In this document: piece by piece, positions 19,299 through 61,382 of the stretch
How the letters are laid out: each line of letters starts with the position of its first letter
How positions within the stretch are numbered: the stretch's first letter is position 1
Origin: Streptomyces sp. OfavH-34-F
GTDB taxonomy: Bacteria; Actinomycetota; Actinomycetes; Streptomycetales; Streptomycetaceae
Assembly: GCF_022347745.1 (NCBI RefSeq)
Contig: NZ_JAKRGC010000001.1
Span: 1 to 64,000, forward strand
Length of the DNA stretch: 64,000 nt
Direction of reading: 5' to 3'
The notes under the pieces: model-generated
Told to the model about the DNA's origin: nothing
Databases searched by the model: none
What the model saw: the letters and a program-made list of their open reading frames with translations, nothing else
Position numbers and translations under genes: made by a program

Positions 19299-19327
19299 TT
19301 GCTTAATACTATGGCTCTGTGTATTAT
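19299..19327 (+). promoter_or_regulatory. Recurrent plasmid promoter, copy 4 (ligA)
   Basis: TTGCTT 19299-19304, 17-bp spacer beginning AATACTATG, TATTAT 19322-19327. The -10 is closer to consensus than in the other copies and the right half of the spacer differs. It lies 137 bases before the ligase start. Confidence 0.7.
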
Positions 19328-19463
19328 CCAGACGTCGGTCGGTTCCGAAGTGCCAACTTCTCGGCCCTTGACACCGACGTCATCCCATCCGGACATCGCG
19401 CTGCGGTGCCGTGCACCGAACGAGCGGCGGCGGCGCCGCCATCAGCCAGAAGGATCAAGAATC

Positions 19464-27868: not shown

Positions 27869-28416
27869 TTCGCGCCACAGCGTGCCGGAGTCGGGTCGTA
27901 GCTCCGGGTGCCGCTCCGAGAGGCCGGCGGAGGCCCTTCGGCATGACTGAAAACACTGCTCCCATGGGCACTCTGAGGAGGCGACCGTCGATCGCGGGAA
28001 GGCCTCAGCGGGCCACACGGAGGGAAGAATCCCAGGTCAGCGCCACATCGACGTATAACGGGCAAAGATCCACAAAAACCAAGATCATCGCCGGAATGGA
28101 TCTTGACGGCCTGAAAAGCACGTGCAAGATTCAGATAAGTTACCGGTCGGATTCAGTCACGGAACGGGCACTACCCCGCATGCGAATGCGGGCACGGGGA
28201 GGGGGCGTGTGCATATCAAGAACACGCTGAACCCCGGATATTCTCCCGCCGAGATTCCTTGCGGAGAATCGCGGGGCGACGCGGGGGTTGCGCACAAGAC
28301 GGTCTCCCCCTCACCCGCCGCCGCACCCCTCCCTGCCGGCTCGATCCGCAGCACCGCCCTGGCCGGCGGGGGGCACCCAGACGGCACTCCCGACGACCAC
28401 AGCACAACGGAGTACG
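27869..28416. other. Intergenic region with hairpin, no gene
   Basis: About 550 bases without a convincing gene. Frames across it are short and Arg/Pro-rich. It is locally AT-richer (28050-28150) and contains a perfect hairpin, CCCGCAT/ATGCGGG at 28175-28192 with a 4-base loop. It probably holds the terminator of the membrane-protein genes and the promoter of the regulator that follows. Confidence 0.45.
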
Positions 28417-28881
28417 GTGACAAGTCGCGGAGTAGCAGCCTTCAGCGGCGCAGCCCTGCGCCGTCTGCGCACCGCGGCACGCCTGTCACAGGACGAACTG
28501 GCCGCGAAGACGCGGCCGTACGGGGCGAAGGTCGCCGGGCCGCACGTCAGCCAGTACGAACAGGGCAGGCGAAAGCCCCAGTTGACCACGCTCCGGGCTC
28601 TAGCCGCCGCCCTGGGTGTCTCTCTGGAGACGCTGCTGGTTCGGGGTGCCTCGTCGGCCGACGTGGCACGGCTGCGGCTGCTCGCCGGCTGGAGTCAGCA
28701 AGCCCTCGCAAGTCGGCTGGGCATCGCCCAGGCCCGGTGGTCGAGGATCGAGCGGGGCTTGTCCTCACTGGAGGAGTCCAAGCTCCGCCCTGCCGCAGAA
28801 CTGTTGAAGGTCACGGTCGAGCAGTTGCTGCGGGCGCTGGACGCCGCGACGCGCGCCCGTGGTCTTCGCGGCCGCCGGTAA
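28417..28881 (+). CDS. Double-HTH XRE family regulator
   Basis: A 154-residue DNA-binding protein from GTG 28417. It consists of two consecutive Xre-type helix-turn-helix domains: residues about 9-75 (LRRLRTAARLSQDELAAKTR, HVSQYEQGRRKPQLTTLRAL) and about 80-140 (VARLRLLAGWSQQALASRLG, QARWSRIERGLSSLEESKLR). No other domain is present. Such tandem-HTH regulators occur in actinobacteria. Its position directly before the pilus cluster makes it a candidate regulator of that cluster or of the recurrent promoter. Confidence 0.8.
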   Translation: MTSRGVAAFSGAALRRLRTAARLSQDELAAKTRPYGAKVAGPHVSQYEQGRRKPQLTTLRALAAALGVSLETLLVRGASSADVARLRLLAGWSQQALASRLGIAQARWSRIERGLSSLEESKLRPAAELLKVTVEQLLRALDAATRARGLRGRR

Positions 28882-29022: not shown

Positions 29023-29610
29023 ATGCCAGTGGCACCTTCAAACAGTGCTCGGATACGCCGGGCCGCGGTCTGTGTTTCGGCAGCCGCGGTCGCCGTGGCA
29101 GTGCTGGCCGGCTGCGGGTCGGGCGGCGGCAGTGCCACGGCGACCGCGTCCCCCTCGCCCTCGAAGACCTCGGCTTCCCCCTCGCTCGATCCGCAGGCCG
29201 CCGCCAAGGAGCAGGTCCTCACCGCCTACCGCGGCATGTGGGCGGAACAGACGAAGATCTACAACTCCGGCAGCTCCAAGGGGTCGAAGCTGGAGAAGTA
29301 CGCCGCTGACAAGGCCCTGACGAAGGTCAAGCTGGCCGCGCAGTACTACCAGCGCAACGACCTGGTAGTGAAGGGCGCACCGATCCTGTCCCCCAAGGTC
29401 ACCGACCTGTCGCTGGACACCTCCCCCAAGTCCGCGACCATCGTGGACTGCGTCGACAGCTCGAAGTTCGTCCCGGAGAACGCCAAGACCGGCAAGAAGT
29501 CCGACCTCGACGGCAGCAACCGCCGGCACGTGCAGACCTCGAAGGCCTACTACGGCAGCGGTAGGTGGATGATCGTCGACGCGACGATCGACAAGGACAG
29601 CACGTGCTGA
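29023..29610 (+). CDS. Lipoprotein of the Tad cluster
   Basis: A 195-residue lipoprotein from ATG 29023 (GAGGGGAT upstream). The lipobox is VLAGC, and a Ser/Thr/Pro linker follows the cleavage site. The globular part (AAKEQVLTAYRGMWAEQTKI ... YYGSGRWMIVDATIDKDSTC) resembles the small NTF2-like secreted proteins that often open Streptomyces pilus clusters. Its end overlaps the next gene (GTGCTGA at 29604-29610). Confidence 0.7.
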   Translation: MPVAPSNSARIRRAAVCVSAAAVAVAVLAGCGSGGGSATATASPSPSKTSASPSLDPQAAAKEQVLTAYRGMWAEQTKIYNSGSSKGSKLEKYAADKALTKVKLAAQYYQRNDLVVKGAPILSPKVTDLSLDTSPKSATIVDCVDSSKFVPENAKTGKKSDLDGSNRRHVQTSKAYYGSGRWMIVDATIDKDSTC

Positions 29611-30599
29611 CCCGACGCGCCTGGCCGCTGATCGGTGCGCTCCTCGCCCCGCTGATCGCGCTCACCGTGCCCGTCGGCACCGCCAGCGCCGACGGCGATG
29701 GCGGCGGAGTCACCTGCCCCGACCTCGTCCCCGACTGCGACATTCACGTCGGCGGAGGAGGCGGGGGCGGGAACGGCGAAACCGGCGGCGGAGGAGGTGG
29801 GGGAGGCGGTGGCGGCGGGTCCGCCAAGTGCTACATCCGCGCGAAGGACCCCAACGGCAAGGAGATCGGCGAAGTTCCCTGCCACGACCCGGGCATGGGC
29901 TGGTTCAACTTCCAGGACCAGTGCTACTGGAAGATCCTCGACCCGCAGCCCAAGGAGGATGCCGAGGACTGGGAGTGGGGCACCGCCGCACCCTCTGACC
30001 CGGCCGCGCGGGCCAAGGGCAAGGTCTACAACGTCACCTGCCCTGGCCTGGGACGTGAGCTGATGGGTGGCTCGACCTGGAGCCAGAACCCCCCGCCGGG
30101 CTTCGGCGGAGGCCCCTCCCCCGAGGAGCTGGCGCAGGAGGCCATCAAGAAGATGCGGCTGCTCGGCGCGCAGATCGGCACGGCCCCCGGTGCTGGGAAG
30201 ACCGGCATCGTCGGCATGCCTGTATGGATCTGGAACGTGAAGACCGCACGGACCTGGGGCCCCGTCTCGGCGAGCGCCTCGGCGGGCGGCCTCACGGTCA
30301 CCGCCATCGCCAACGTGAAGAAGATCGTCTACACGATGGGTGACGGTGGCAGTGAGACGTGCACCAACGCCGGCACTCCCTACGAGGCGTCGTACGGGGG
30401 CAGTTCCTCACCCACCTGCGGCTACCGGTACACCAAGACCTCCAGTGGCCGGCCCGGCAACACCTTCTCCGTGAGCGCGGTCACCACCTGGACCGTGCAC
30501 TGGCAAGGCGGCGGACAACAAGGCGACATCACCACCACCCGCGCCTCCGGAGGCGTGCAACTGGCCATCGGCGAGGCCCAGGTCGTCGCCAAGCCGTGA
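29604..30599 (+). CDS. Secreted Gly-rich protein of the Tad cluster
   Basis: A 331-residue exported protein starting at GTG 29604. The signal peptide ends near TASADG. Next comes a polyglycine segment (residues about 48-72), then a domain with spaced cysteines (CYIRAKD, CHDPGMGWFNFQDQCYW, VTCPG) and a beta-rich C-terminal half (WIWNVKTARTWGPVSASASA, VKKIVYTMGDGGSETC). Proteins of this type accompany actinobacterial Tad loci. It could be a surface or pilus-associated protein. Confidence 0.65.
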   Translation: MLTRRAWPLIGALLAPLIALTVPVGTASADGDGGGVTCPDLVPDCDIHVGGGGGGGNGETGGGGGGGGGGGGSAKCYIRAKDPNGKEIGEVPCHDPGMGWFNFQDQCYWKILDPQPKEDAEDWEWGTAAPSDPAARAKGKVYNVTCPGLGRELMGGSTWSQNPPPGFGGGPSPEELAQEAIKKMRLLGAQIGTAPGAGKTGIVGMPVWIWNVKTARTWGPVSASASAGGLTVTAIANVKKIVYTMGDGGSETCTNAGTPYEASYGGSSSPTCGYRYTKTSSGRPGNTFSVSAVTTWTVHWQGGGQQGDITTTRASGGVQLAIGEAQVVAKP

Positions 30600-30627
30600 C
30601 CCGCCCGCACACGTAAGGAAAGCCCAG

Positions 30628-31314
30628 ATGAGCACCACCACGGGGCCCGCCCCTGAAAGCACCGACCAGCAGAGGCCTGCCCCCAAGTCGATCGTCCGCC
30701 AACCGGTCGTGCGCCGGCGTCGGCCCGGCTTCATTGCCATGGCCGTCGCGCTGATCGCCGTGGGAGTCGGCGCGAACGCCTGGCTGTACATGGCGACCGG
30801 CGACCGGGAGCCCGTCGTCGCCATCGCACACGACGTGCCGATGGGCGCGCAGCTCACCGCCGACGACCTCGTCGAGGCCCGGATCGCCACCGACCCCGTC
30901 CTCCACCCCGTGCCGGCCAGCCAGATCAAGAAGGTGATCGGCAAGCGCACCACGGTCGGCCTGACCAAGGGCAGCCTGCTCACCAGCCAGGCCATCAGCG
31001 ACCAGCCACTGATCAAGCAGGGCCAGGAGCTGGTGGGCGTCTCACTCTCCACCGCGCAGATTCCCGCCAGCACCGTGAGCCCCGGCCAGAAGGTCAACGT
31101 CGTCCACACGCCCAAGAACAACGGCGCCGACAGCGACCCGGCCGGCGGCAGCAAGGACACCACAGTGCACGCCGTCGTCATCGAGGTCGGCAAGGCCGAC
31201 AACAGCGGCGACCGGGTGGTGGACCTCGCGGTCAGCGCCCTGGACGGCGCCACCCTCGCCCAGTGGTCCGCGAACGGCGAAGCCTCCCTCGTCGTCGTCC
31301 CGACGGGGAACTGA
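30628..31314 (+). CDS. SAF-domain CpaB-like pilus protein
   Basis: A 228-residue membrane-anchored protein: a basic cytoplasmic start, one transmembrane helix (PGFIAMAVALIAVGVGANAW) and an external SAF domain (VVAIAHDVPMGAQLTADDLV, GKRTTVGLTKGSLLTSQAIS). The family is CpaB/RcpC, which in Tad systems works outside the membrane in pilus assembly. A clean ribosome site (AAGGAAAG) precedes ATG 30628. The following TadZ-like gene starts two bases after its stop. Confidence 0.75.
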   Translation: MSTTTGPAPESTDQQRPAPKSIVRQPVVRRRRPGFIAMAVALIAVGVGANAWLYMATGDREPVVAIAHDVPMGAQLTADDLVEARIATDPVLHPVPASQIKKVIGKRTTVGLTKGSLLTSQAISDQPLIKQGQELVGVSLSTAQIPASTVSPGQKVNVVHTPKNNGADSDPAGGSKDTTVHAVVIEVGKADNSGDRVVDLAVSALDGATLAQWSANGEASLVVVPTGN

Positions 31315-31315
31315 C

Positions 31316-32170
31316 ATGGCCGTCATCGCCTTCTCCGGCGCCAGCGGCGGCCCCGGAGTGACAGCGACCGCGCTCGCCGCCCTGCTGACCTGGCCCCTGA
31401 CCGACGGCCGCCGCGCCATCCTGGCCGAGTGCGACCCCGACGGCGGCTCGATCGCCGCCGGCTACCTCGAGTCGCGGCTCCTGGGCGAATACGGCCTGCA
31501 CAACCTGGAAGTGGCCCACCGCCGTCGCCAGCTTGACCAGGACTTCTGGTACCAGCTGATCGACGTGTCCGACAAGGACAACCAGGACCGACTGCTGCTG
31601 CCGGGCCTGTCCAACCCTGCTCAGGCCGCCGGTCTGAGCCAGGTCTGGCAGCGCCTCGGCCTGCTCTTCGACCAACTGCAGAGCCAGGACCCCGGATACG
31701 ACGTCCTGGTGGACCTCGGCCGCTCGGGGGCCACTGGATCAGCCAGCGCCCTGGCCCGCTCCGCGGACATCGTCGCCGTCGTCGTGCGCCGCACCCTGCG
31801 GTCGGCCAGCGCCGCCAAGCCCCGGGTCGAGGCGCTGCGCGCCGCGCTCGAGGACCGCGGCCGCGACAGCGGCCGCCTCGGCCTGGTCGTGATCGAGGAG
31901 GGCAACTTCCGTCCGCGGGACATCGCCGAGCAACTGGAACTGCCCATCTTCGCCACGCTCCCCCACGACCCCAGAGCCGCTCAGATCCTCTCCCACGGCG
32001 GCGACGGGGGGCGGTACTTCGGCCGGTCCGCGCTCCTGCGCGAAGCGCGAGCCATGTCGGAGCAGCTACGGGGTCTGGCCATGCAGGAGCGGCAGCGGCT
32101 CCTCGCCCCCGCGCTGCGCCCGCAGACCGTCCTCGACCGAATGAAGGGAGCCGTCAATGCAGCGCGGTAA
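31316..32170 (+). CDS. TadZ/CpaE-like ATPase-fold protein
   Basis: A 284-residue protein of the ParA/MinD fold, which in Tad systems localises the machinery. The P-loop region reads GASGGPGVTATALA. The usual invariant Lys of the deviant Walker A box is replaced, and a GPGVT stretch stands in its place, as in many actinobacterial TadZ proteins. Later it has DPDGGSIAAGYLE and VLVDLGRSGATGS. It may therefore not hydrolyse ATP. It overlaps the TadA gene by 14 bases. Confidence 0.75.
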   Translation: MAVIAFSGASGGPGVTATALAALLTWPLTDGRRAILAECDPDGGSIAAGYLESRLLGEYGLHNLEVAHRRRQLDQDFWYQLIDVSDKDNQDRLLLPGLSNPAQAAGLSQVWQRLGLLFDQLQSQDPGYDVLVDLGRSGATGSASALARSADIVAVVVRRTLRSASAAKPRVEALRAALEDRGRDSGRLGLVVIEEGNFRPRDIAEQLELPIFATLPHDPRAAQILSHGGDGGRYFGRSALLREARAMSEQLRGLAMQERQRLLAPALRPQTVLDRMKGAVNAAR

Positions 32171-33695
32171 GCCCCTGTACGCACCGGGCCAGGTCTCGCA
32201 CCTGCCCCACCAGGCCCCCGTCGAGGGATGCACCAACTCGCCCGGGCTCGTGGCGCCGGCCGCGCCGTCGGCGCCGTCCGGGGACGGCCCCGTTGTCGCA
32301 CGCAGGTCGCTGTGGGACTGGGAGACCGTCACCAGCCTGCGCGAGGAACTCAGCCGGCAGATGGCACCGGAGTTCCAGGCGTACAAGGAATCCAACAAGC
32401 GGGACATGCCCGCCGACGAGTCCGAGCAACGCGGCTGGGAGATCATCAACGAACTCGTCGCCCGGTGGGCGGCGGACTTCGCTGCCGCCCGGCAGATCTC
32501 GCCGGCCGAGTCCGACGAGACGAGCTTGGCCCAGGCGGTCTTCGACGCCCAGTTCGCCCACGGGCGCCTCCAGCCCTACCTGGACGACGAGAGGGTCGAG
32601 AACGTCCTGATCAACGGCTGCGACGACGTGTGGATCGACTACACCGACCGTCCCCGCCAGAAGGTCGAGCCGATCGCGGAGAGCGACGAGGAACTCGTCG
32701 AGTTCCTCCAGATGCTCGCCCGCCGCCACGGCGCCGGTGAGCGCAGCCTCTCCAAGGCGTCGCCGACCCTGGCCCTGCGCCTGTCGGACACCTCGCGTCT
32801 GCAGGCAATGACCGAGGTCACCCCGCGGCCGTACGTGACTATCCGAAAGCAGCGGATCCGCTCCGTCACGCTGGAGGACCTGGTCACCTACGGCACCATC
32901 GACCCCGGGATGATGCACTTCCTCAAGGCCGCCATGGCCGCGGAGAAGAACATCATGATCTCCGGCACTCAGGGCGTCGGCAAGACCACGATGATCATCG
33001 CGCTGGCGCGCGAGGTCGACCCGCAGGAGCGGGTGGGCACGCTGGAGACCGAGTACGAGCTCTTCCTGCACGAGGTCGGGCACCTCAAGCAGGTCGTACC
33101 GATGGAGTCCCGGGAGGGCAACGGCGAACGCGTCGACGGCCGCGAGGTCGGCGAGATCGAGATCGCGGACCTGATCGCTCCCTCGCTGCGTATGATGCTG
33201 CGCCGCATGATCGTCGGAGAGGTCCGCTCACGCGAGATCGTTCCCATGCTCCAGGCGATGTCCGCCGGTGAGGGCGGCTCGCTCTGCACGATCCACAGTC
33301 GCAAGGCCGAGGGCGTGTTCGCGCGCATCGCCCAGCTGTGCATCCAGCACGGCGACGGGATGACGCAGGAGTTGGCCTACCTGATCGCCGGCGCAGCGCT
33401 GGACTTCGTCGTCCACGTCAAGATGATCGACGAGACCCGCATCGGCGGGAAGAAGGTGCGCTTCGTCGAGCAGATCCTGGAGGTCACCGGCGAGGCCAGC
33501 GAGAGCGGCCTGCCCTCCACCAACAAGATCTTCGCTCCCCGGTCCGGGTCCGGAGACCCCCGCGCCGTGCCGACCGGGGTGAACCCGTCCTGCCTGGACG
33601 ACCTGGTGCGCGCCGGGTTCAACCCGGCGTGGCTGTGCGAGGAGAACGGCAGCTGGGGCGGGCCGCTGGACATGAAGCGGACGGCGGTGGCCTGA
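32157..33695 (+). CDS. tadA: TadA/CpaF secretion ATPase
   Basis: A 512-residue type II/IV secretion ATPase powering pilus assembly. Walker A is GTQGVGKTT (270-278, Lys276). The Asp box region has ETEYELFLHE and the Walker B region is RMIVGEVRSREIVPML, followed by GGSLCTIHSRKAEG with the conserved His. The N-terminal domain is typical of CpaF. Start ATG 32157 lies within the end of the TadZ-like gene. The stop TGA overlaps the next ATG at 33695. Confidence 0.9.
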   Translation: MQRGKPLYAPGQVSHLPHQAPVEGCTNSPGLVAPAAPSAPSGDGPVVARRSLWDWETVTSLREELSRQMAPEFQAYKESNKRDMPADESEQRGWEIINELVARWAADFAAARQISPAESDETSLAQAVFDAQFAHGRLQPYLDDERVENVLINGCDDVWIDYTDRPRQKVEPIAESDEELVEFLQMLARRHGAGERSLSKASPTLALRLSDTSRLQAMTEVTPRPYVTIRKQRIRSVTLEDLVTYGTIDPGMMHFLKAAMAAEKNIMISGTQGVGKTTMIIALAREVDPQERVGTLETEYELFLHEVGHLKQVVPMESREGNGERVDGREVGEIEIADLIAPSLRMMLRRMIVGEVRSREIVPMLQAMSAGEGGSLCTIHSRKAEGVFARIAQLCIQHGDGMTQELAYLIAGAALDFVVHVKMIDETRIGGKKVRFVEQILEVTGEASESGLPSTNKIFAPRSGSGDPRAVPTGVNPSCLDDLVRAGFNPAWLCEENGSWGGPLDMKRTAVA

Positions 33696-34588
33696 TGGGC
33701 GTGTTGATCGCCGGCTTCGCCGCACTGTTCCTTTTCGGCGGGATCGCCTTGTTCGTGGCGGGCGTGCGCGGCACCGAGGTGTCCGCCCGTCCGGTCAAGG
33801 TCAAGCACGAGCTGCCGCCGAAGTCCAGGAGGATGCGGCAGATGCAGATGGGTGGCGCCGCCATCGCCGGCATGCTGACCTGGCTGGTCTCCGGCTGGCT
33901 GCCCTCCGCCCTGCTGGTCGCCGGCGCCGTGTTCTTCCTGCCATGGCTCGTCAACCCCAACAAGGCCGCCAACGAGCAGATCGAACGGCTGGACGCGCTC
34001 GCGCAGTGGACCAAGCGACTGTCCGACCTGGTGCGCACCGGTACCGGCATCGAGGAGTCGATCGCGGTGTCGGTCCGCACCGCACCCCGGCCGATCGAGC
34101 GCGAAGTGGCGGACCTGAACGTGCGCCTTCAGTCGCGGATCCCGACGGGTGACGCGCTGACGGCGTTCGCCCGCGCGATCGGCGACCCGCGGGCCGACCT
34201 CGTCTCCGCAGCGCTGCTGCTGCGCATGAAGGACCGCGGCCCCGGCCTGGCGGACGTCCTGTCCGACCTGGCGGCACGGACCTCCAATGTGGTGCGCCGC
34301 CGGCGCGACGTCGAAGCGGACCGGGCCAAGCACCGCACCACCACCCGCTGGATCTGCGCGATCACCCTGGTGGTGATCGTCGGGTTCTCCTTCAACAAGT
34401 CCTACATCGAGCCGTACGGCACCCCGCTGGGGATGCTCGTGCTGGTCATCTTGATGGCCGCCGTCGTCGCGCTGTTCTGGTGGATGAGCCGCCTGGGGAT
34501 GGACAAGCCCCTGCCCGGCTTCATGGAGTACGACGAGAAGTCCGCCGGTTCGCACACCGACCCGGTCTTCACGGAGGTCGCGCGATGA
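33695..34588 (+). CDS. tadB: TadB-like inner-membrane protein
   Basis: A 297-residue integral membrane protein of the GspF/TadB family. Two transmembrane segments lie near the N-terminus (around 1-25 and 55-90), then a cytoplasmic T2SF domain (LAQWTKRLSDLVRTGTGIEE, FARAIGDPRADLVSAALLLR) and two C-terminal transmembrane helices (WICAITLVVIVGFSF, MLVLVILMAAVVALFWW). It forms the pilus platform with TadC. It overlaps both neighbours. Confidence 0.8.
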   Translation: MGVLIAGFAALFLFGGIALFVAGVRGTEVSARPVKVKHELPPKSRRMRQMQMGGAAIAGMLTWLVSGWLPSALLVAGAVFFLPWLVNPNKAANEQIERLDALAQWTKRLSDLVRTGTGIEESIAVSVRTAPRPIEREVADLNVRLQSRIPTGDALTAFARAIGDPRADLVSAALLLRMKDRGPGLADVLSDLAARTSNVVRRRRDVEADRAKHRTTTRWICAITLVVIVGFSFNKSYIEPYGTPLGMLVLVILMAAVVALFWWMSRLGMDKPLPGFMEYDEKSAGSHTDPVFTEVAR

Positions 34589-35481
34589 ACCAGCTCACCA
34601 TCGCCCTGCTGGCCGGCGCCGGCATCGGCCTGGGCCTGTTCTTCCTGATCCGCGAACTGCTGCCCTCCGGCCCGGCGCTCGGCCCGGCCCTGGAGCGGCT
34701 GCACGGAAGGCCCCAGGCTGCCGTACGTCGCCGCGACGACAAGCGCCCGCTGCTCGAGCGCGTCGGCGACCGGGTCGCGGAGCGGGTACGGGACTGGCCC
34801 GGCGTCAGCGTCCCGACCAAGAACCTCAACCTCGTAGGCGACACGATCGGAGAGTTCTTCGGCAGCAAGGCCCTGCACTTCGTCGTCGGGCTGATCCTGC
34901 CGTCGTTCTTCTCTCTGGTCCTCACCCTGGCCGGCATCGACCTGCCCTTCGTCCTCACCGGACTGGCCGGCATCGCCGCAGGTGTCGGCCTGTGGTTCCT
35001 GCCCGACGCCCAGCTGGCCAAGCGCGCCACCCAGGCCCGCGCGGAAGCATCCCAGGCGGTCATGGCCTACATGGAACTCGCCGCCATGGAGCGGATCTCC
35101 AGCTCCGGCGCCCAGGACACCCTGGAGCGGCCGGCCGAGGTCGGCAACGGCTGGGTCTTCCGCCGGATCCAGGCCGCCCTGGTCCGTGCCCGCCTGGACC
35201 GGGCGCCCGCCTGGGACGGGCTGCGCCACATCGCCGACGAACTCGACGTACCTGCAGCCGGCGACATCGCCGACATCGTGGCCAGCGCCGGCACAGACGG
35301 CGCGGCGATCTACAGCACCTTGCGCAGCCGCGCGGAGTCCCTGGCCGACGAGCAGGCCGCCGCCGAGCAGGCCCGGGCGAACGCAGCCTCCGAGAGCCTG
35401 ATCGTCCCGGTGACCTTGCTCTCCATGATCTTGCTCGTCTTCTTCGGCTTCCCCTCCGTAGTCCGCATCTTCCTCGTCTGA
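34585..35481 (+). CDS. tadC: TadC-like inner-membrane protein
   Basis: A 298-residue partner of TadB, starting at ATG 34585 within the tadB stop. It has an N-terminal transmembrane helix (LTIALLAGAGIGLGLFFL), central membrane segments (LHFVVGLILPSFFSLVLTLA, LTGLAGIAAGVGLWFL), a GspF-like cytoplasmic domain and a C-terminal helix (LIVPVTLLSMILLVFFGF). Length and layout match actinobacterial TadC. Confidence 0.8.
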   Translation: MNQLTIALLAGAGIGLGLFFLIRELLPSGPALGPALERLHGRPQAAVRRRDDKRPLLERVGDRVAERVRDWPGVSVPTKNLNLVGDTIGEFFGSKALHFVVGLILPSFFSLVLTLAGIDLPFVLTGLAGIAAGVGLWFLPDAQLAKRATQARAEASQAVMAYMELAAMERISSSGAQDTLERPAEVGNGWVFRRIQAALVRARLDRAPAWDGLRHIADELDVPAAGDIADIVASAGTDGAAIYSTLRSRAESLADEQAAAEQARANAASESLIVPVTLLSMILLVFFGFPSVVRIFLV

Positions 35482-35507
35482 ACCGCACTCACAAGGAGCA
35501 CCTCACC

Positions 35508-35738
35508 ATGAAGACCTCTCCCGCTCTGCGCATGGCGGTCACCGCGTACACCGCGCTCGCACACGTCCTGTCAGCGGCCGAGCAGAAGTTCGCCGACGCC
35601 CGCGAGGAGGGCGACCGCGGCGACAACAACATCTCCACGATCATGTGGATCGTCGGCATCGTGGCCTTCGCGGCGATAGCCATCGCGGCTTTCAAGGTTC
35701 TCGGCCAGTCCAAGCTCGACGACATGAAGGGCCTGTAA
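35508..35738 (+). CDS. Flp-like pilin
   Basis: A 76-residue pilin-like protein from ATG 35508, after CAAGGAGCACC. A hydrophilic leader of about 40 residues ends in EEGDRGDNN and is followed by one hydrophobic helix (STIMWIVGIVAFAAIAIAAF). Size, helix position and place between tadC and tadE fit the DUF4244/Flp class of major pilins in actinobacteria. No TadV-type prepilin peptidase lies in the cluster, so processing would need a chromosomal enzyme. Confidence 0.75.
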   Translation: MKTSPALRMAVTAYTALAHVLSAAEQKFADAREEGDRGDNNISTIMWIVGIVAFAAIAIAAFKVLGQSKLDDMKGL

Positions 35739-36146
35739 ATGGCTCTTCGGGCTCTCGCCCGTCGTATCCAGCAGCGGTGGCGGGAGGACGACGGTGACGC
35801 GAGTCTGCAGATGCTGATCTGCTTCCCCGCCGCGCTGCTGCTGATCCTCATGGTCGTCGACACCTGCAACGTGTACTTCGCCAAGCAGGCCGCCACCACC
35901 GCGGCGCGGGAGGCCGTTTCCGGTGCCCGCGCCTATGGAAGCGGCACCGAGGACGGAATCGCGCGGGCCGACGCGGTCTTCCGGCGCGTCGGCGGGACGC
36001 TGCGCGGTCCCCGGGTGAGCACGGCGGGTTCCAACGCGGAGCGAGTCGTGTTCACCGTCACCGCCAAGGCGCCGTCCCTGATCGGGCTCAACATCAGCAT
36101 CATCGAACGCGCCACCGGCCCGGTAGAGAGGTGGACCAGCCCGTGA
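35739..36146 (+). CDS. TadE-like minor pilin
   Basis: A 135-residue pseudopilin starting directly after the Flp stop. The N-terminal basic part and DGDASLQMLICFPAALLLIL form the TadE-like segment, in which a Gln stands where Glu is usual. The external part is beta-rich (ERVVFTVTAKAPSLIGLNIS). It overlaps the next gene by GTGA. It probably acts as a minor pilin or initiator. Confidence 0.7.
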   Translation: MALRALARRIQQRWREDDGDASLQMLICFPAALLLILMVVDTCNVYFAKQAATTAAREAVSGARAYGSGTEDGIARADAVFRRVGGTLRGPRVSTAGSNAERVVFTVTAKAPSLIGLNISIIERATGPVERWTSP

Positions 36147-36589
36147 CCAGCAGCCGACGGCAGCCGCGCCGGCCCCTGGGGGGCGACGACCGGGGCAGCA
36201 TCGCCATCGAGTTTGTGATGTGGGTTCCCGCCGCGATCCTGTTCCTCGCGATCGCGTTCGTGGCGGGGCGCATCGTCACGGCCAGCAACGCCGTCGACTC
36301 CTCGGCGGCGGCGGCCGCGCGCGAAGCCTCCATCGCCCGCACCGCCGGTGAGGCGCAGGCCAACGCCCGATCGGCCGCCCAGGTCGCCCTGTCGGACCAG
36401 AAGCTCAAGTGCGCCCGGACCAGCGTCACCGTGGACACTTCCGGCTTCAGCGCTCCGCTGGGCGCCTACGGTGCCGTCACCGTGCGCGTCAGCTGCACCG
36501 TCCAGCTCAACGACCTCGGCTTTTCGATCGGCTCCAAGACCGTCAAGTCCAGCTTCACTTCCGTGATCGACAGGTACAGGCAGCGATGA
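36143..36589 (+). CDS. TadE/TadF-like minor pilin
   Basis: A 148-residue pseudopilin. GTG 36143, overlapping the preceding stop, is preferred to GTG 36131. It has the classical TadE start DDRGSIAIEFVMWVPAAILF with the conserved Glu, a short helix and a beta-rich tail with two Cys (KCARTS, SCTVQLNDLGFSIGS) that could form a disulfide. The stop is overlapped by the next ATG at 36586. Confidence 0.7.
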   Translation: MTSSRRQPRRPLGGDDRGSIAIEFVMWVPAAILFLAIAFVAGRIVTASNAVDSSAAAAAREASIARTAGEAQANARSAAQVALSDQKLKCARTSVTVDTSGFSAPLGAYGAVTVRVSCTVQLNDLGFSIGSKTVKSSFTSVIDRYRQR

Positions 36590-37041
36590 GCAGCACCGAC
36601 TCCACCGCATCCCGCCTCGACTGGTTCCGCGACGACCGCGGCTCGCTGTCGATGTGGTGGCTCCTGATGGTCATCCCGATGTTCATCATGCTCGGCCTGT
36701 CCTTCGACCTCGGCGGGAAGCTCCGCGACATCGAGCGGGCGGACGCGATCGCGGCCGAGGCCGCCCGGGCCGGCGGCCAGGCGATCGACCCCGCCAAGGC
36801 CATCGCCGGCACCGCGGTCGTGCTCGACCCTGCGGCCGCGCAGCGGGCCGCCTACCAATACCTCAACGCCGCCGGCGTCCGCGGCACGGTCACCACCAGC
36901 GGCGACGGCAAGACCATCAACGTCCACGTCACCATCCAGCACAAGACGATCTTCTTGCAGGTCATCGGCCAGTCCTCGCTCCCCGTCGAGGGCCACGCCA
37001 GCGCTGAGCTCCTGCACGGCATCGGCGCCCCGGAGGGATGA
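36586..37041 (+). CDS. TadG-like pilus protein
   Basis: A 151-residue protein: DDRGSLSMWWLLMVIPMFIM is a Tad-type N-terminal anchor, followed by an external mixed domain (IERADAIAAEAARAGGQAID, INVHVTIQHKTIFLQVIG). The first part matches the TadG/putative Flp pilus-assembly family and replaces TadE's Glu with Ser-Met. It overlaps the giant gene that ends the cluster. Confidence 0.7.
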   Translation: MSSTDSTASRLDWFRDDRGSLSMWWLLMVIPMFIMLGLSFDLGGKLRDIERADAIAAEAARAGGQAIDPAKAIAGTAVVLDPAAAQRAAYQYLNAAGVRGTVTTSGDGKTINVHVTIQHKTIFLQVIGQSSLPVEGHASAELLHGIGAPEG

Positions 37042-40000
37042 TCCGCGCCATGACACCGACTCGCCCCCACACCGCCCGGCACCGCCCCCGGGCGGTCGAT
37101 GTCGTCCGCGGCCTGGTCAGCCTGGTGGTCCTCCTGGCCCTCCTGGCAGGGCTGCCTGTACTGCTGTGGGCCCTCACCGGTGTGCTCCTGCCGGACGGCG
37201 TCTCGCCCGGCGAAGTCACCTCCCTGCTGACCAGCCACGAGCTCGGCGCCCCGTTCTTCGCCGTCATCATGGCGATCGGCTGGATCAGCTGGGCCACCTT
37301 CGCCCTCTGCACACTGCTGGAGATTCCGGCCCAGCTACGCGGGCGCCCCACCCTGCGCCTGCCTGCCCTCGGTTTCCAGCAGCGCATGGCCGGCGCCCTG
37401 GTCAGCGGCGTGCTCATCCTCCTGCCCATCGGGACCGCGATGGCGGCGCCGGTCTCCGCCGCACCGGCCGTCACCCACGCTCCGACCGCCGCCACTGCAC
37501 CGGCCACCGTGAAGGCGGCCACCGCCTCTGACACCTCGGCGGCCACCGCCCGCACCGCCGACCAGTACGCGGGCACCTACACCGTCCAGGCCCGCGACAG
37601 CCTGTCGAAGATCGCCCTCAAACAGCTCGGGGACGCCTCCCGATGGCGGGAGATCGCCACGGCCAACGACGGCAAGACCATGGTCGACGGAACGAAGTTC
37701 TCCACCCGCAGCGCCCTCCGGCCGGGCTGGAAGCTGACGATGCCCAGGGACTGGAACCCTGCCAACCGGGAGCACCAGGTCAAGCCGGGCGAGACGCTCT
37801 CCTCCATCGCCGAGACGGAACTCGGCGACGCCAGCAAGTACCCGCAGATCGCCGAGCTCAACGAGGGCCAGCGACAGCCGGACGGCCGGACCCTGAGCGA
37901 CCCGGACAAGATCTACCCGGGCTGGGAACTCCAGCTGCCGCACACCGCCGCCCCGCAACAGGACACCGGGGGAACCGCCGCCCCGGACTCCCCCGCCGCT
38001 GACCAGCAGGACAGTCACTCCGCCGACCAGGAGAAGGACGACGGCCATGCTGGCCAGGAGGCGCAGCACGGGCAGTCCGACCAGGACGCTGGAGCATCCA
38101 CCGGCGCACCCAGCACAGACTCCGGCTCGGAGCGGAGCAGCACGCCGAAGGCCAACCCCACCACGGGCCCGAGGGACACCGCGACACCGGACGCCACGGC
38201 GACCCCCAACCGACTGGAGGCCGCCCGTCCGCAGACCCCGCAGCCCCACACCCCGGCCGAGGACACCAGCAGCGACTCCTCCGTCGCCTCCACCGCCATA
38301 GCCGTCACCAGCCTCTTCGCCGCCGCCGTCCTGGCCGTGCTCGGCGGACGGCGAGCCCTCCAGCAGCGCCGTCGCCGACCGAGGCGCCGCATCCCGCTGC
38401 CGCAGCAGGCCACGGTGCCGGCCGACGTGGAAAAGCAGCTCCGCGTCGCCTCCGACACCAACGGTCTCGGCCTCGTCGACCTCGCGCTGCGCACCCTAGC
38501 GGCCAACTGCGCCAAGACCGGCCAGCCGCTTCCCCAGCTGGACGCCATCCGGGTCACGCCGCGCGGCCTGGAACTGCACCTATCGGCACCAACCCCGGAG
38601 ATCGCCCCGTTCTCCGAGATGGAAGAGAACCCCGACCGGTGGTGGTGCCCCGCCCGCGGCGCGCACCTCCTGGACGCGGAGCAGGCCCGCGACATCACGC
38701 CCCCCTACCCCGCGCTGGTCAGCCTCGGCGAGACCGAGGAGCAGGAACCGGTTCTCGTCAACCTTGAGTCCGTCGGCGCGCTGCGCCTGAGCGGCGCCGA
38801 CGCGGACATCCGCGCCGTCATGCTCGGCATGGCGGTCGAACTGGCCTCCTCCGGCCTGTCCGACGACGCCACGGTCATCCTGGCCGGCCTGGGCGAAGAG
38901 CTCGTCGGTGTCTTCCCCATCCGGGTCGAGCACCAGCGGGACCTGGCTCACGCCCTGCCGGAACTGCGCGCCCACGACGCCCTCCAGCGCGGCGCGCTTG
39001 CCGCCGGCGGCCTGGACAGCCTGGACCAGGCCCGTCTGGTCGAGGACGGCGGCGACACCTGGGTTCCCAAGGTGCTGATCACACCCGCGGGGCCCGCCGG
39101 AGAAGAGGCAGACGCCCTCACCGATCTGCTCTGCTCCCGGCCCCGGACCGCGACCGCCGTCGTCACCGAGGCCGAAGGCGAACTCGAGGTCCCCGGCGCC
39201 TGGACACTCCCGGCCGCACCGGGCACTGCAGTGCAGTTGCCTGGCCTGGACCTCACGGTCACCCTGCAACGCCTCGAGGACGAGGCGTACGACCCGCTGA
39301 TCCAGCTGCTCGCCACGGCAGCCCGCACCGACGATGTCGCCGCGCCGGCTTGGACACACTCCCCTTACGGCACCGCTGTCCAGAACGGCCCGGCGCCGGT
39401 CACCCCGCAGGGCGACTCCGCTCTGGCCCAGGCCACCCCCGAGGTGGCACCCGTCGAAGACGGCCTTCCCGAGGAGGACGGCACACAGCAGACCGGCGAG
39501 CCCCAGGCTGCGCCGGCCGTCCAGGTGGCCGTGAGCCCGGTGAGCTCCTCCTTCATCACGGCGGTTCCCAGCTTCAGTGCGCTGGCCCCGTCGGTCACCG
39601 GCGCCGAGGACGGCTTCTTCGACGGCAACGGCCCGGAACAGCAGCACGGCGGCAGTGACGACGATGAGATCGGCACCGCGCGGGAGCCACGTTCCGAGGA
39701 CCTCTTCGACGAGACGCTTCAGGAAGTCCTCGACGAACGCGACGCCCCGGAGGAGGACGCCGGCGAGTACGAGCAGGGGGAGGACCCCGTGGACGAGGCA
39801 GCCGGATTCGACGAACTCACCGCCGAGCAGCCGGAAGAGGAGGGCTCCGCACTGTCGCCGGCGACACTGGGCAGCTCACCCAACCCGCAGCTTGCTCCCC
39901 CTCCCGCTCCCGTGGAACGTCCGGCCGCCCGGGTCACGGCGGTCACCTCCGGAGTGCTGGCGGCTCTGAACACGCCGCCGGACCCGCCGTCCGCTCCGCA

Positions 40001-40754
40001 GATTCGCGTCCTGGGCCCCGTCGACGTGATCAGCACGCTCGGCAAGGTCGAGAGCAACCGGCGCAATGGGCTGACCGAGATCGCCGCGTGGCTCGCCCTG
40101 CACCCGGGCAAGTCCCGCCACGAGCTCGATGAAGCGATCTGGCCCGGCCAGCGGGTGCGCGCCGACACCCGCAACACCAACATCTCCAAGCTGCGGGCCT
40201 GGCTCGGCCGCGATCCCCTGCTACCGGCCGAGGATCCGTGCGGCGCCTACCTGCCGCCGATCAGCGAGGGCGTGTACGCCTTCAACCACCAAGTCACCAG
40301 TGACTGGCAGCAGTTCCAGGCGTACTACCAGGAGGGGATGCACTCCTCCAACGCCGACGCCGACACGGCCCTGGCCAACGCCCTCTCGCTCGTACGCGGA
40401 AGGCCGTTCAGCGACATCGACCAGAGCAAGTACGCGTGGGCGGAGTACGACATCCAGGAGATGATCTCCGCGACCACGGACGTGGCCCACGAGCTCGCCA
40501 CCCGGCGCCTGGCGGTGCGCGACTACCGCGCGGCGCTCGCCGCAGCCTCCCGCGGCCTGGTCTGCGACCAGATGAGCGAACTGCTGTACCGGGATCTGTT
40601 CACCATCTACAGCGAGACCGGTGACCGTCAGGGGCTGGAACGGACGGCTCACCAGTTGACGCGCATCGCGGTCGAAAGTGGCTGCGACTCCGCCCCCGAG
40701 ACGGTGGCCTTGATCAACGCCTTGATGGACGCGAACCGCATCGCGTCCGCCTGA
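37038..40754 (+). CDS. Giant LysM-BTAD membrane protein
   Basis: A 1238-residue multidomain protein. Three transmembrane segments lie in the first 140 residues (about 24-50, 70-93, 115-135). Next come two LysM domains (about 180-236 and 246-301: YTVQARDSLSKIALKQLGDA, HQVKPGETLSSIAETELGDA), a Ser/Thr/Asp-rich linker and a further transmembrane helix near 425. A large cytoplasmic part ends in a DNA-binding winged helix plus BTAD (about 989-1238: IRVLGPVDVISTLGKV ... SDIDQSKYAWAEYDIQEMIS). LysM binds peptidoglycan and BTAD regulators are transcription activators, so the protein could report wall or pilus state to gene expression. It ends the Tad cluster and overlaps tadG-like by four bases. Confidence 0.8.
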   Translation: MIRAMTPTRPHTARHRPRAVDVVRGLVSLVVLLALLAGLPVLLWALTGVLLPDGVSPGEVTSLLTSHELGAPFFAVIMAIGWISWATFALCTLLEIPAQLRGRPTLRLPALGFQQRMAGALVSGVLILLPIGTAMAAPVSAAPAVTHAPTAATAPATVKAATASDTSAATARTADQYAGTYTVQARDSLSKIALKQLGDASRWREIATANDGKTMVDGTKFSTRSALRPGWKLTMPRDWNPANREHQVKPGETLSSIAETELGDASKYPQIAELNEGQRQPDGRTLSDPDKIYPGWELQLPHTAAPQQDTGGTAAPDSPAADQQDSHSADQEKDDGHAGQEAQHGQSDQDAGASTGAPSTDSGSERSSTPKANPTTGPRDTATPDATATPNRLEAARPQTPQPHTPAEDTSSDSSVASTAIAVTSLFAAAVLAVLGGRRALQQRRRRPRRRIPLPQQATVPADVEKQLRVASDTNGLGLVDLALRTLAANCAKTGQPLPQLDAIRVTPRGLELHLSAPTPEIAPFSEMEENPDRWWCPARGAHLLDAEQARDITPPYPALVSLGETEEQEPVLVNLESVGALRLSGADADIRAVMLGMAVELASSGLSDDATVILAGLGEELVGVFPIRVEHQRDLAHALPELRAHDALQRGALAAGGLDSLDQARLVEDGGDTWVPKVLITPAGPAGEEADALTDLLCSRPRTATAVVTEAEGELEVPGAWTLPAAPGTAVQLPGLDLTVTLQRLEDEAYDPLIQLLATAARTDDVAAPAWTHSPYGTAVQNGPAPVTPQGDSALAQATPEVAPVEDGLPEEDGTQQTGEPQAAPAVQVAVSPVSSSFITAVPSFSALAPSVTGAEDGFFDGNGPEQQHGGSDDDEIGTAREPRSEDLFDETLQEVLDERDAPEEDAGEYEQGEDPVDEAAGFDELTAEQPEEEGSALSPATLGSSPNPQLAPPPAPVERPAARVTAVTSGVLAALNTPPDPPSAPQIRVLGPVDVISTLGKVESNRRNGLTEIAAWLALHPGKSRHELDEAIWPGQRVRADTRNTNISKLRAWLGRDPLLPAEDPCGAYLPPISEGVYAFNHQVTSDWQQFQAYYQEGMHSSNADADTALANALSLVRGRPFSDIDQSKYAWAEYDIQEMISATTDVAHELATRRLAVRDYRAALAAASRGLVCDQMSELLYRDLFTIYSETGDRQGLERTAHQLTRIAVESGCDSAPETVALINALMDANRIASA

Positions 40755-41576: not shown

Positions 41577-43958
41577 TCATGCGGCGGCCGGAACCAGCCC
41601 GGCTGCGGTGACCTGTTCCAGCTGCTCGGGGGTGAGCCGGTCCAGACGTTTGCGGAGGTTGTTGATGAACTGGCCCACCCTCACGACCTCGCCGTCTATG
41701 ACGACCGTGTCGCGCTGCCGGATCGGCACGTCGTGTCCGTGCTGCGCACGGAAGGCCGCGACGGCGGCCAGACCGTCGTCGAGCTGGCGCTGCTGGCGTA
41801 GTTGCCGGCCGGTCGGCGCCAGCGCCGCCTGGACCGGCTCGACGGCGGCGATGCCGATCTGGAGGAGGAGCTGAACCTGGTCGGGATGCAGTTGGTCGAA
41901 GGCGATGGCCTGCTGGTAAATCCACTCACCCAGCGGCTCGGTGTCGTCGGTGACGAAGTCCCGCGGCAGGTCCTCCAGGGCCACGCCGGCCTGCTGGTAG
42001 CGCAGGGCGGTGACGTACTCGCGCTGCCAGGTGATCGGCCACACGGGATTCCACCAGGGGTAGAGGTCGCTCAGCGCCACCTCGACCGGGTCGGGTTCCA
42101 AGCCCCGGGCGGCGCGGTCGCGGGCGCTGCGCCGGCGGTTGACGAGCCAGCGGCCGAAGGCGTAGTCGCCGATCATCTCGTCGGCGGGCACTGCGAGGTG
42201 CCCGTGATGCTCGACGTAGAGGCGAGCGTGGGCCAGGCCGCGTTCGGTGGCCTGCTTGCGCAGGTCCCAGATCATGCCGATCGCTTCGAGCGCCTTGATC
42301 CGCAGCGGGCTCAGGCGCTTGCCCGCGTACATCTGCCGGGCGTAGTTGATCCACCGGCCCAGGGCGAAGCCGGTCTCGTCGTCGTACAGCTGGGGCACGT
42401 CCAGGTGGCCGTGCTCGGCGAAGTACCGCTCGGCTGCGGCCATGCCGCGCTGCCAGGCGGCCTCGCGGGGGTGGAGCACGCGCAGGCGCAGTGCGAGGGC
42501 GAGGGTGTCGTCGGGGAACTCCCGGTCCATGACCAGCCGCGGCTCTTCGGTGGTCTCGGCTTCCGGTTCGTCCTGGTCCGGGGCGCGTTCGGTGTGGGTT
42601 TGCGGGACCGCCAGGCGGTCGGCGAGCCGGTCGTCGTGTGCTCGGAGAGCCTGGAGGACCTTCCACAACGGCTTGTAGACCGGCGAGTTGAGCAGGTCGT
42701 CCGGGTCCTGCTGCGGAGCGACGAAAAGTGGGACCAGGATGGTGGCCTTCTTGCCGGCGCCGGGCTTCTGTCGCAGGGCGCGGCCGACGGCCTGGACGGT
42801 GTCGACGATGCTGTCTTTGACGTCGGCGAACACTACGCAGTCGATCGCGGGGATGTTGACGCCTTCGCCGAGCAGGCGCGCGTTGGCGATGAGGGTGCGC
42901 GGGTAGGGGGCGGTGCCGTCCTCGGGGCGTCCGTCGAACTTGCCGAGCAGCGCGTGGCGGACGTCGACGCTCATCAGCCCGTCGATGCCGGCCGCCCACA
43001 GGCTGTCGGGGTCGGGGAAGGTGGTGCCGGAGTCGTCGAGCGCGGCCAGGTGCCGGGCGGTTGCCTGGAAGGTGTCGGCAAAATCGTGGGCGTCGGCGAC
43101 ACGGTGGTGGAAGCTGACGACCCGCTTGAGGTCGAGCTGCGCCATCGCGCGCAGGACCGCGACCTGCACGGCGGCGCGGCGCAGTTCGGCCGCGTCGGCG
43201 TTCTCGGCCAGGCCGAGGCGGGCGCGCAGGTCCTTCTCGTGGACTTCCAGTACGACGACGCGGTAGTCGGCCAGCAGCTCTATGTCGATCGCCTCCGCCA
43301 ACGGGAGACGAAAGCTGGTCTCGCCGTAGAGGGCGGGGTCCTCCATGGAGGCGACGAGCTCGGGGTCGTCGGCGTCTCCGGCCGACCAGATCCTCGGGGT
43401 CGCGGTGTAGTAGGCGCGGCGGCCTGCGGGCACAAGCCGGTCGTGGTGGACTGCGGCCCAGCTCTTGTTGATGTAGCCGCTGGTCCGGTGGGCCTCGTCC
43501 GCACTGATCAGCGCCCACGGCCCCAGGCGGAACTTGCGGTGCGCCTTCTGGATCTTGTCGAGGGACTGGTAGAGGCCGAACACGGTGCCGTCGGGGTTGT
43601 CCTGGACCCAGGCGGCCAGGAAGCCGGGGTGGGTGCTGGCGGGGATGTGCTCGCCGGGCACCTTGGGCCGGCGGTGGCACATGGCCATGACCGGGCCTTC
43701 GTGGCCGGCCTCACGCCACTCGGCGATGGTCTGGCCGAGCAGTTCGACGGTCGGCACAAGCACTAGCTGGTGTCCGTGCCGGACAATCTCGCGGGCGACA
43801 CGGGCGGCGATGACCGTCTTGCCGGTGCCGCACGCGGAGATCACGGTGGTGCGGGGGCCGTGGCGCAGGGCGGTGGCCGCGCTGTGCACGGCACGGGCCT
43901 GGTGCGGGCGCAGGCGAAGACGCGGCCGTGCCGGGGGTGTGAGGGTGGCGGTGGCCAC
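41577..43958 (-). CDS. DEAD/DEAH helicase with HA repeats
   Basis: A 793-residue superfamily 2 helicase. I start it at GTG 43958, preceded by GGAAGGAG on the minus strand. Walker A is ACGTGKT (42-48), motif II is DEAH (154-157), TATPRIW follows, and motif VI is QAVGRALRQKPG. After about residue 500 come several helicase-associated repeats (FALGRWINYARQMYAGKRLS, YAFGRWLVNRRRSARDRAAR, RVGQFINNLRKRLDRL), which bind nucleic acid. Helicases of this build are frequent on actinobacterial linear plasmids. Downstream of tap-tpg, it may help replication or end patching. Confidence 0.85.
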   Translation of the reverse strand: MATATLTPPARPRLRLRPHQARAVHSAATALRHGPRTTVISACGTGKTVIAARVAREIVRHGHQLVLVPTVELLGQTIAEWREAGHEGPVMAMCHRRPKVPGEHIPASTHPGFLAAWVQDNPDGTVFGLYQSLDKIQKAHRKFRLGPWALISADEAHRTSGYINKSWAAVHHDRLVPAGRRAYYTATPRIWSAGDADDPELVASMEDPALYGETSFRLPLAEAIDIELLADYRVVVLEVHEKDLRARLGLAENADAAELRRAAVQVAVLRAMAQLDLKRVVSFHHRVADAHDFADTFQATARHLAALDDSGTTFPDPDSLWAAGIDGLMSVDVRHALLGKFDGRPEDGTAPYPRTLIANARLLGEGVNIPAIDCVVFADVKDSIVDTVQAVGRALRQKPGAGKKATILVPLFVAPQQDPDDLLNSPVYKPLWKVLQALRAHDDRLADRLAVPQTHTERAPDQDEPEAETTEEPRLVMDREFPDDTLALALRLRVLHPREAAWQRGMAAAERYFAEHGHLDVPQLYDDETGFALGRWINYARQMYAGKRLSPLRIKALEAIGMIWDLRKQATERGLAHARLYVEHHGHLAVPADEMIGDYAFGRWLVNRRRSARDRAARGLEPDPVEVALSDLYPWWNPVWPITWQREYVTALRYQQAGVALEDLPRDFVTDDTEPLGEWIYQQAIAFDQLHPDQVQLLLQIGIAAVEPVQAALAPTGRQLRQQRQLDDGLAAVAAFRAQHGHDVPIRQRDTVVIDGEVVRVGQFINNLRKRLDRLTPEQLEQVTAAGLVPAAA

Positions 43959-44020
43959 GGGGTGGGTTCTCCTTCCAGGCGTGCGGGGCTGAGGTGGCGT
44001 CGCCACCGGGTGGGCGGCGT

Positions 44021-61200: not shown

Positions 61201-61210
61201 GGCCGGGAAG

Positions 61211-61258
61211 CGCGCGGGTTCCGAGATTCTCGGGCTGCCCATGACCTGAACCCGCGCG
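61211..61258. repeat. 11-bp inverted repeat at tnpA truncation point
   Basis: CGCGCGGGTTC (61211-61221) and GAACCCGCGCG (61248-61258) are perfect complements around a 26-base loop that itself has GAG-ATT-CTC. It begins ten bases beyond the last tnpA match. It may be the end or attachment site of whatever truncated the transposon. Confidence 0.55.
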
Positions 61259-61382
61259 TCATTCACGATAGATATAGCACCAGCAGACGGGTTGAGATGC
61301 GCAGCGGCCCCCAAATTGCCCTTGTCGGCGTCGTGGCCAGAGGGCTGGGGGCCGCGCGTGTGGTGAGGGGATCAAGGACACG

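Follow-up and report, generated by a model that had tools for sequence, protein, structure and literature searches.

A LysM-BTAD protein with a putative FtsK-type pseudo-ATPase domain at the end of a Streptomyces plasmid Tad pilus cluster: predicted architecture and separate descent of its two halves

The 64,000-base stretch of Streptomyces sp. OfavH-34-F DNA analysed here (the window) carries a Tad/Flp pilus gene cluster whose last gene (37038..40754, forward strand; overlapping the preceding TadG-like gene by four bases) encodes a protein of 1238 residues (P0001), hereafter the giant. According to its open reading frame and domain matches, the giant combines LysM domains, a putative FtsK-type pseudo-ATPase domain, and a winged helix followed by BTAD. 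We propose that the giant is a wall-anchored membrane regulator of one actinobacterial Tad pilus subtype, a tentative reading to which we assign a probability of about 45%. The outer half, with three transmembrane (TM) helices and LysM, would sit in the peptidoglycan beside the pilus and go with the pilus type; the state of the wall or of the pilus base would pass via the fourth helix (TM4) and the catalytically dead FtsK/EccC-type domain to the winged helix and BTAD; and these would bind DNA of the replicon and adjust the expression of the pilus genes. The domain order, the predicted topology and folds, the conserved place at the cluster end and the separate descent of the two halves are what the analysis shows; the location in the membrane and wall of the cell, the binding of DNA, the signal, the targets and the direction of regulation are what we infer.

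Hydropathy predicts TM helices at residues 25-43, 69-87, 121-139 and 416-434 of the giant (the second is barely over the threshold), and the two LysM domains (Pfam, 6.1e-10) are placed between TM3 and TM4. The outer half (TM1-3, two LysM domains and a linker; residues 1-404) is encoded at 37038..38249, followed by TM4 (38283..38339), a basic stretch predicted from charge counts to be cytosolic, the central domain (38388..39344), an acidic linker (residues 776-980, with 41 D/E and 5 K/R), and the winged helix with BTAD (residues 982-1238; 39981..40751), all on the forward strand. The Pfam match to BTAD (2e-5) lies at 40302-40724. With the N-terminus inside, as predicted from hydropathy, LysM would lie outside and BTAD inside the cell, and the four-helix topology and the domain matches agree with the claim of the first-pass annotation that LysM is joined across the membrane to BTAD. 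Among 11 aligned members of the giant family, Pfam recognised LysM in all 11 and BTAD in five. In S. alboflavus (L268, 11890-15653) the giant is annotated as two genes with a four-base overlap, which may be a frameshift, a sequencing error or a real split. The predicted topology and folds have the CadC/ToxR-type layout (a cytosolic DNA-binding fold, TM helix and outer domain in one chain), and the giant has the FimV/HubP-type layout (LysM, TM helix and acidic cytosolic region) as well.

The dead FtsK/EccC-type domain between the membrane and BTAD is new and was missed by the first-pass annotation. The AlphaFold model of this central domain (pLDDT 87.9) has a P-loop fold of the FtsK/EccC/TcpA type, which matched the FtsK motor (6t8o; Z score 14.9 over 217 residues, root-mean-square deviation (rmsd) 3.4), EccCb1 (9jv8; Z score 14.5), and the conjugation coupling protein TcpA (6o1x; Z score 12.8); a Foldseek comparison with 6t8g gave 5.1e-7. 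The Walker A motif was not found in any of 121 central domains (118 distinct), and we read the domain as a pseudo-ATPase, i.e., a catalytically dead relative of FtsK/EccC. The winged helix before BTAD is another addition to the earlier description. The model of the C-terminal part (pLDDT 92.0) matched AfsR (8hvr) with a Z score of 17.0 over 234 residues (rmsd 4.0, both domains covered) and EmbR (2fez) with a Z score of 16.1, both ranking ahead of TPR-only structures (13.1 and below), which is indicative of a SARP-type unit; the family profile also gave a weak match to the CadC DNA-binding domain (5ju7; E 0.008).

We then estimated how common the giant is and where it is located. In the class the central-domain profile matched 124 of 394 genomes at a threshold of 1e-5, and in the genus 125 of 295, counts that may be low given that few first-look candidates were scored per genome; the single giant protein as query at 0.001 found 10 of 149 genomes of the phylum (the genome of the window is included in all three counts). 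For closer comparison 100 places (L121-L220) were picked, 60 from the class list and 40 from the genus list, spread down the lists and not random. In the sequence examined around each place, six or more of the nine Tad genes lay upstream in the same orientation at 73 places, and at 71 of these their order was also the same; two places had fewer and 25 had none. At 96 of the 100, a winged helix with BTAD lay no more than 3 kb away on that strand. The Tad profiles were built with the window as a member, so that the window's own matches prove nothing. Because 73 of the 100 homologous places show this arrangement, the cluster of the window is not a chance arrangement, and the giant, on the same grounds, regularly accompanies one subtype of actinobacterial Tad cluster. 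In a tblastn search, the giant matched 223 of 72,556 plasmid records, in 27 of which a single place spans 80% or more of its length; the weakest matches are confined to LysM. In plasmids of Streptomyces, Rhodococcus, Xylanimonas, and Cutibacterium the giant is the last gene of the cluster, whereas in Micrococcus, Clavibacter, and Microbacterium two to five further genes separate it from the cluster; mid-chromosomal copies also exist (e.g., L139 and L190). A scan with four Streptomyces giants gave many LysM-only matches, and the central domain was present in 15 of the first 19 of 80 loci (L041-L059), namely L041-L052 and L054-L056, of which L043 is a fragment. The genome of the window itself has a second cluster of the same subtype (contig C299, L019), with a giant 40% and a TadA 53% identical to those of the window; the surroundings examined at two other TadA loci (C28 and C601) had no central domain. 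The giant is thus not unusual: it has matches in 223 plasmid records, and a pairing of the two domains had been published by 2013. What is of interest is not that the gene occurs, which is ordinary, but its architecture and its natural hybrids.

Comparisons among the window and ten plasmid records (11 loci) suggested that one of these hybrids is the linear Streptomyces plasmid NZ_CP108678.1 (L010). The window and L010 share 35-48% identity in the pilus-module genes and 49-51% in the outer parts of the giant, whereas they are 81-87% identical from TM4 to BTAD. A comparison of L010 with L261, which is a linear plasmid from Streptomyces sp. AM 4-1-1, gives the opposite pattern, with identities of 80-93% for the module genes and 86% for the outer parts versus 67% for the TM4 stretch and 61-63% for the inner domains. 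The identity of L010 switches between about residues 380 and 405 of the giant, just before TM4. In our reading, the position of L010 is the sole difference between the trees of the pilus block and of the inner block, and the tree of either block is rejected by the other (approximately unbiased (AU) test, p 1.4e-66 and 7.2e-46). By the opposite identity patterns and the tree conflict, L010 carries a replaced pilus module; the outer half of its giant was exchanged along with it, and one of the breakpoints lies within the giant gene. As L010 and L261 are finished records, an error in the draft assembly of the window cannot explain the exchange.

A second hybrid, L210, emerged when 98 loci were compared pairwise, 4,753 pairs in all (L181 and L182, taken as the same plasmids as L010 and L017, were kept out of the pair comparison and are still among the 100 picked places; L184 was taken as L261). 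Compared with L200, the pilus genes of L210 are 67-80% identical and its inner half only 34%; compared with L205, L208, and L211, the inner half is 75-80% and the pilus genes 35-50% identical. The switch lies farther upstream than that of L010, around residues 250-300 of the open frame of L210. In tree tests in which L010 was left out and only the place of L210 was constrained, the pilus genes rejected L210 beside L205/208/209/211 (AU p 8.5e-55), and the inner half rejected L210 beside L200/127/017/046/189 (AU p 1.9e-7). These replace an earlier test that included L010 (AU p 1.65e-94 and 3.7e-95) and mixed the two events; the exchange stands, with a weaker p on one side. The Nocardioides loci L048 and L054, 70-73% identical in the inner half and 39-58% in the pilus genes, are a weaker candidate for a third exchange. 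The co-replacement of pilus genes and outer half with the inner half staying, as read from these alignments in two lineages, is new, and by the same evidence the outer half goes with the pilus type. The inner halves of L010 and L210 persist beside TadA and TadZ proteins that differ strongly from those of their nearest inner-half relatives, and persistence beside a TadA and TadZ only 40-48% identical to those of the nearest relative is easier to explain if the partner of the inner half is DNA and not the pilus motor. The exchange pattern favours an interaction partner that is not part of the pilus machine, DNA for example, and is no proof of it.

The recognition helix offers a view on whether such DNA binding is plausible. 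The DNA contacts of AfsR include R87, T88, S91, R92, R94, and K95, and E76/E77 touch RNA polymerase, according to the accessible text of PMC10936776, a figure legend of which states that E77A alone had no obvious effect. The window copy aligns T, S, K, and R with T88, S91, R92, and R94 (the last two being K1051 and R1053 of the giant), so that four of the six contacts are kept or conservative. For the relatives, we used 100 non-redundant winged-helix sequences (117 before thinning), a set distinct from the 100 picked places that takes 77 of its members from them and only includes copies with a profile-found winged helix in the same frame, copies that lost it being uncounted. The R94 place is R in 80 of these 100 relatives, the R92 place is basic in 61, and the net charge of the recognition helix is at least +2 in 63. 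DNA-binding residues missing in all homologues, which the first-pass annotation had named as grounds for abandoning its idea, is thus not what we observe.

Several observations nevertheless weigh against a regulator. AfsR R87 and K95 are not kept in the window copy, the net charge of the recognition helix is zero or below in 31 of the 100 relatives (14 of the 16 SARPs of the same genome have at least +2), and AfsR P79 is missing in 93. The places of E76/E77 are mostly G, R or others in the relatives and are G and Q in the window copy; in the 16 SARPs of the genome they are acidic in at most 10 and 9, respectively. A phased SARP-type 11-base repeat between the upstream helix-turn-helix (HTH) gene and the pilus cassette was no better than in shuffles in any of six sequences; the best 11-base tandem of the window had 7/11 matches (P 0.24 against a rough null in which the shuffles moved two-base blocks), and five relatives were alike. 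Further, 25 of the 100 picked places have no Tad gene in the stretch examined, and 22 of these 25 have the winged-helix part; the breakpoints of the hybrids may simply fall where similarity permits recombination; and even the window and L261, a pair that shows no exchange, are more alike in the inner half than in the outer. In view of the partial conservation of contacts and the spread of charges, DNA binding is likely for the window copy and for many relatives, not for all, and activation via the exact contacts of AfsR is unlikely. The idea of a wall-to-gene signalling route, put forward in the first-pass annotation, therefore gains from the anatomy, the SARP-type fold and the separate histories of the halves, and loses through the 31 non-positive helices, the acidic pair and P79 that are mostly lost, and the lack of an upstream repeat. 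A conserved TA-GCT-like stretch was seen in the alignment as a candidate related to the operator question.

The main rival to the regulator is a FimV-like hub, in which LysM would anchor an assembly site, the acidic cytosolic part and TPR-type end would recruit pilus or other proteins, and the winged helix would be a relic or a protein-binding surface. The same general plan is given for FimV/HubP in the available portion of PMC12918733, the acidic residues of the 776-980 linker and the strong linkage of the giant to pilus genes would suit a hub, and so would the 31 relatives that have no net-positive recognition helix. A partner among the cytosolic pilus proteins is, however, at odds with L010 and L210, where these proteins and the inner half descend separately, and an R at the R94 place in 80 of 100 relatives would be difficult to account for if the winged helix were dead. 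The Pfam and NCBIfam scans of the proteins listed no FimV model, but do not exclude a distant FimV-type domain. We regard the hub as possible and, on balance, doubtful.

A tether is less likely still: in this reading the giant would act as a pseudo-coupling protein in plasmid transfer or partition, keeping plasmid DNA attached to the pilus base through its cytosolic half and regulating no genes. The central domain shares its fold with FtsK and the coupling protein TcpA, and the inner half of L010 stayed with the replicon, both as expected of a tether; conjugation-like genes lie near some relatives (from the Xylanimonas annotation and, for a C. acnes plasmid, from the text at hand of PMC5696575). 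Such a role fits poorly with the missing Walker A in 121 of 121 domains, with mid-chromosomal copies such as L139 and L190, and with the MOB-suite calls of 176 of the 223 matching plasmids as non-mobilizable (calls that are provisional for linear plasmids). That the giant is a wall protein merely hitchhiking at the operon end is improbable: the 25 Tad-less places speak for it, 24 of them having at least 8.8 kb of upstream sequence, but the giant ends or closely follows the cluster in plasmids of the seven genera named above, and among the 25, L202 is cut by a contig end and L190 and L194 have an adjoining prepilin peptidase, so that their Tad genes may be farther off, as in L141. Giants with a winged helix and BTAD and no Tad gene nearby were seen in L129, L131, L133, L135, L157, L159-L161, L163, L164, L167, L170, L171, L177, L180, and others; some Tad-less relatives have frames of 1300-1800 residues and are possibly stand-alone.

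Returning to the regulator, its more specific form would be a modular wall-to-gene receptor. The sensor half would come with an exchangeable pilus cassette, and the replicon would own the output half, made up of the winged helix, BTAD and a dead FtsK-type adaptor; on at least two occasions, natural recombination inside one gene would have connected different pili to a common output. We put this forward as a conjecture, more probably wrong than right in its full form. If true, it would represent a class of receptor in which a secretion/conjugation ATPase fold became a signal adaptor, add a dead FtsK/EccC-type domain placed between the wall and a DNA-binding fold, and open a route to finding what Gram-positive Tad pili sense. 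As natural hybrids, L010 and L210 make a vague idea directly testable by half-swapping.

The pilus cluster that precedes the giant has the genes, coordinates and order claimed for it (CpaB, TadZ, TadA, TadB, TadC, Flp, two TadE and TadG, then the LysM-BTAD giant), and is, by its matches, real and complete apart from the peptidase. All genes are on the forward strand. The module opens with a predicted lipoprotein (29023..29610; lipobox LAGC in the translation, same place in relatives) and a secreted glycine-rich protein (29604..30599, start inferred; 43-75% identical to the same-place gene in ten plasmids). A CpaB/RcpC-like SAF-domain protein (30628..31314; PF08666 4.8e-8, TIGR03177 1.4e-5) and a TadZ/CpaE-like ATPase (31316..32170; TIGR03815 1.1e-12, no Pfam match) follow, both of whose NCBIfam matches are below the cut-offs. 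The motor ATPase TadA/CpaF (32157..33695; PF00437 1.4e-21) has an intact Walker A (GTQGVGKT) and the motif MIVGEVR, and is followed by the platform pair TadB (33692..34588, start inferred; PF00482 8.4e-7) and TadC (34585..35481; PF00482 3e-5, at 24.4 bits just under the gathering score of 25.2). The Flp-like prepilin (35508..35738) had no Pfam match at 0.01 and no meaningful NCBIfam match, and is named from its place, its size and its alignment with the same-place gene in ten relatives; at its processing site (expected G/xxxxE) the glycine is kept and the usual E5 is S in the window copy, L011, and L019. Two TadE-like pseudopilins (35739..36146, PF07811 1e-8; 36131..36589, start inferred, PF07811 2.4e-6, motif G/SIAIEF) and a TadG-like protein (36586..37041, start inferred; PF13400 1.1e-5) complete the set.

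The location of the cluster on a plasmid, also claimed earlier, is backed by colinearity with the 338,085-base NZ_CP108678.1. The window is part of contig C111 (138,532 bases) of a genome of 7.4 Mb in 638 contigs; the first 54 kb of C111 are colinear, with gaps, with 61-104 kb of this linear plasmid, and 66-72 kb of C111 match its 161-168 kb. The first-pass annotation had reported no prepilin peptidase, and our search of the own genome likewise found none on the window contig; elsewhere in the genome, Peptidase_A24 genes lie on contigs C66 and C202. The last 17.5 kb of C66, which carry one of these genes (71.5% identical over 267 residues to that of NZ_CP108678.1), run parallel to the 252-275 kb region of that plasmid. 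Because of this colinearity, shared with the window contig, the peptidase is probably borne on the same plasmid, far from the cluster. An A24 match was present in seven of nine related plasmid records (six over the cut-off), and in Micrococcus, Clavibacter, and Microbacterium the peptidase gene directly follows the giant. Among the 100 picked places, nine had a prepilin peptidase match at most 4 kb downstream of the giant (L126, L139, L141, L188, L190, L192, L194, L196, and L204), several of them mid-chromosomal. A DUF2637 protein lies directly downstream of the giant in five plasmids (L261, 17905-19413; L264-L267) and beside the prepilin peptidase in two other places (C66, L020 10886-12301; L262, 24876-26135). 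A link of DUF2637 to plasmid spread was considered and is not claimed; one relevant paper makes no mention of DUF2637.

Just upstream of the pilus module, an XRE-type HTH protein (28288..28881, forward strand; PF13560 9.9e-21, PF01381 1.2e-19) was missed by the first-pass annotation. The gene is 73% identical to the same-place gene in L010 and 46-57% in L011, L262, L263, and L268; the gene at this place in L261, L264, and L266 has no HTH match and is a different gene, so that its low identities are not like-for-like. A helicase with helicase-associated (HA) repeats (41577-44006; PF03457 2.2e-39) adjoins the cluster on the other side. Elsewhere, the window carries a plasmid-borne NAD-dependent DNA ligase (19299-21536; 75.5% to the related plasmid); in L266 and L267, the annotation places ATP-dependent ligases close to the giant. 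A Tn3-type transposase and three integrase-like genes, one just below the Pfam cut-off, were also found (60300-61262, 7512-8669, 8666-11257, and 62153-63886).

The closest published precedent is PAGK_2369 of the P. acnes linear plasmid pIMPLE-HL096PA1, listed in Table 2 of PMC3666418 (2013). Like the giant, it combines Pfam LysM and BTAD and belongs to a plasmid Tad locus, of which it is the last but one gene; in the part of that paper available it is named 'TadB', with no function, fold, topology or exchange described. The same Cutibacterium plasmid type is treated in PMC5696575 (seen in part), and our Cutibacterium relative (L015) aligns with the giant over its whole length. In the accessible part of PMC8213781, the LysM and BTAD Pfams are named separately, in another system. 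No description of the function of the giant was found in the literature searched, which mostly lacked subscription papers and, for LysM with BTAD, also required Streptomyces.

Among characterised systems, AfsR (8hvr) and EmbR (2fez) have the same winged helix and BTAD fold, matched across 234-239 residues. The available text of PMC10936776 does not describe AfsR as a membrane protein, whereas the unit of the giant is joined to TM helices and LysM, misses the acidic pair and, in the window copy, has an HTH loop that is shorter by two residues. FimV/HubP consist of LysM, a TM helix, an acidic cytosolic region and a C-terminal TPR (PMC12918733, in the portion available); the giant shares LysM, the TM helix, the long acidic cytosolic region and a TPR-type end, but has in addition the pseudo-FtsK domain and the winged helix, and its C-terminus is BTAD by Pfam and by fold. 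With FtsK, EccC, and TcpA the giant shares the fold of its central domain and differs in having no Walker A. CadC and ToxR represent a class of membrane-bound one-component regulators. Like them, the giant is predicted to be a membrane protein that has an outer domain and a winged helix in the cytosol; it differs in that this winged helix stands near the C-terminus, after a pseudo-FtsK domain, and in that the outer part is LysM.

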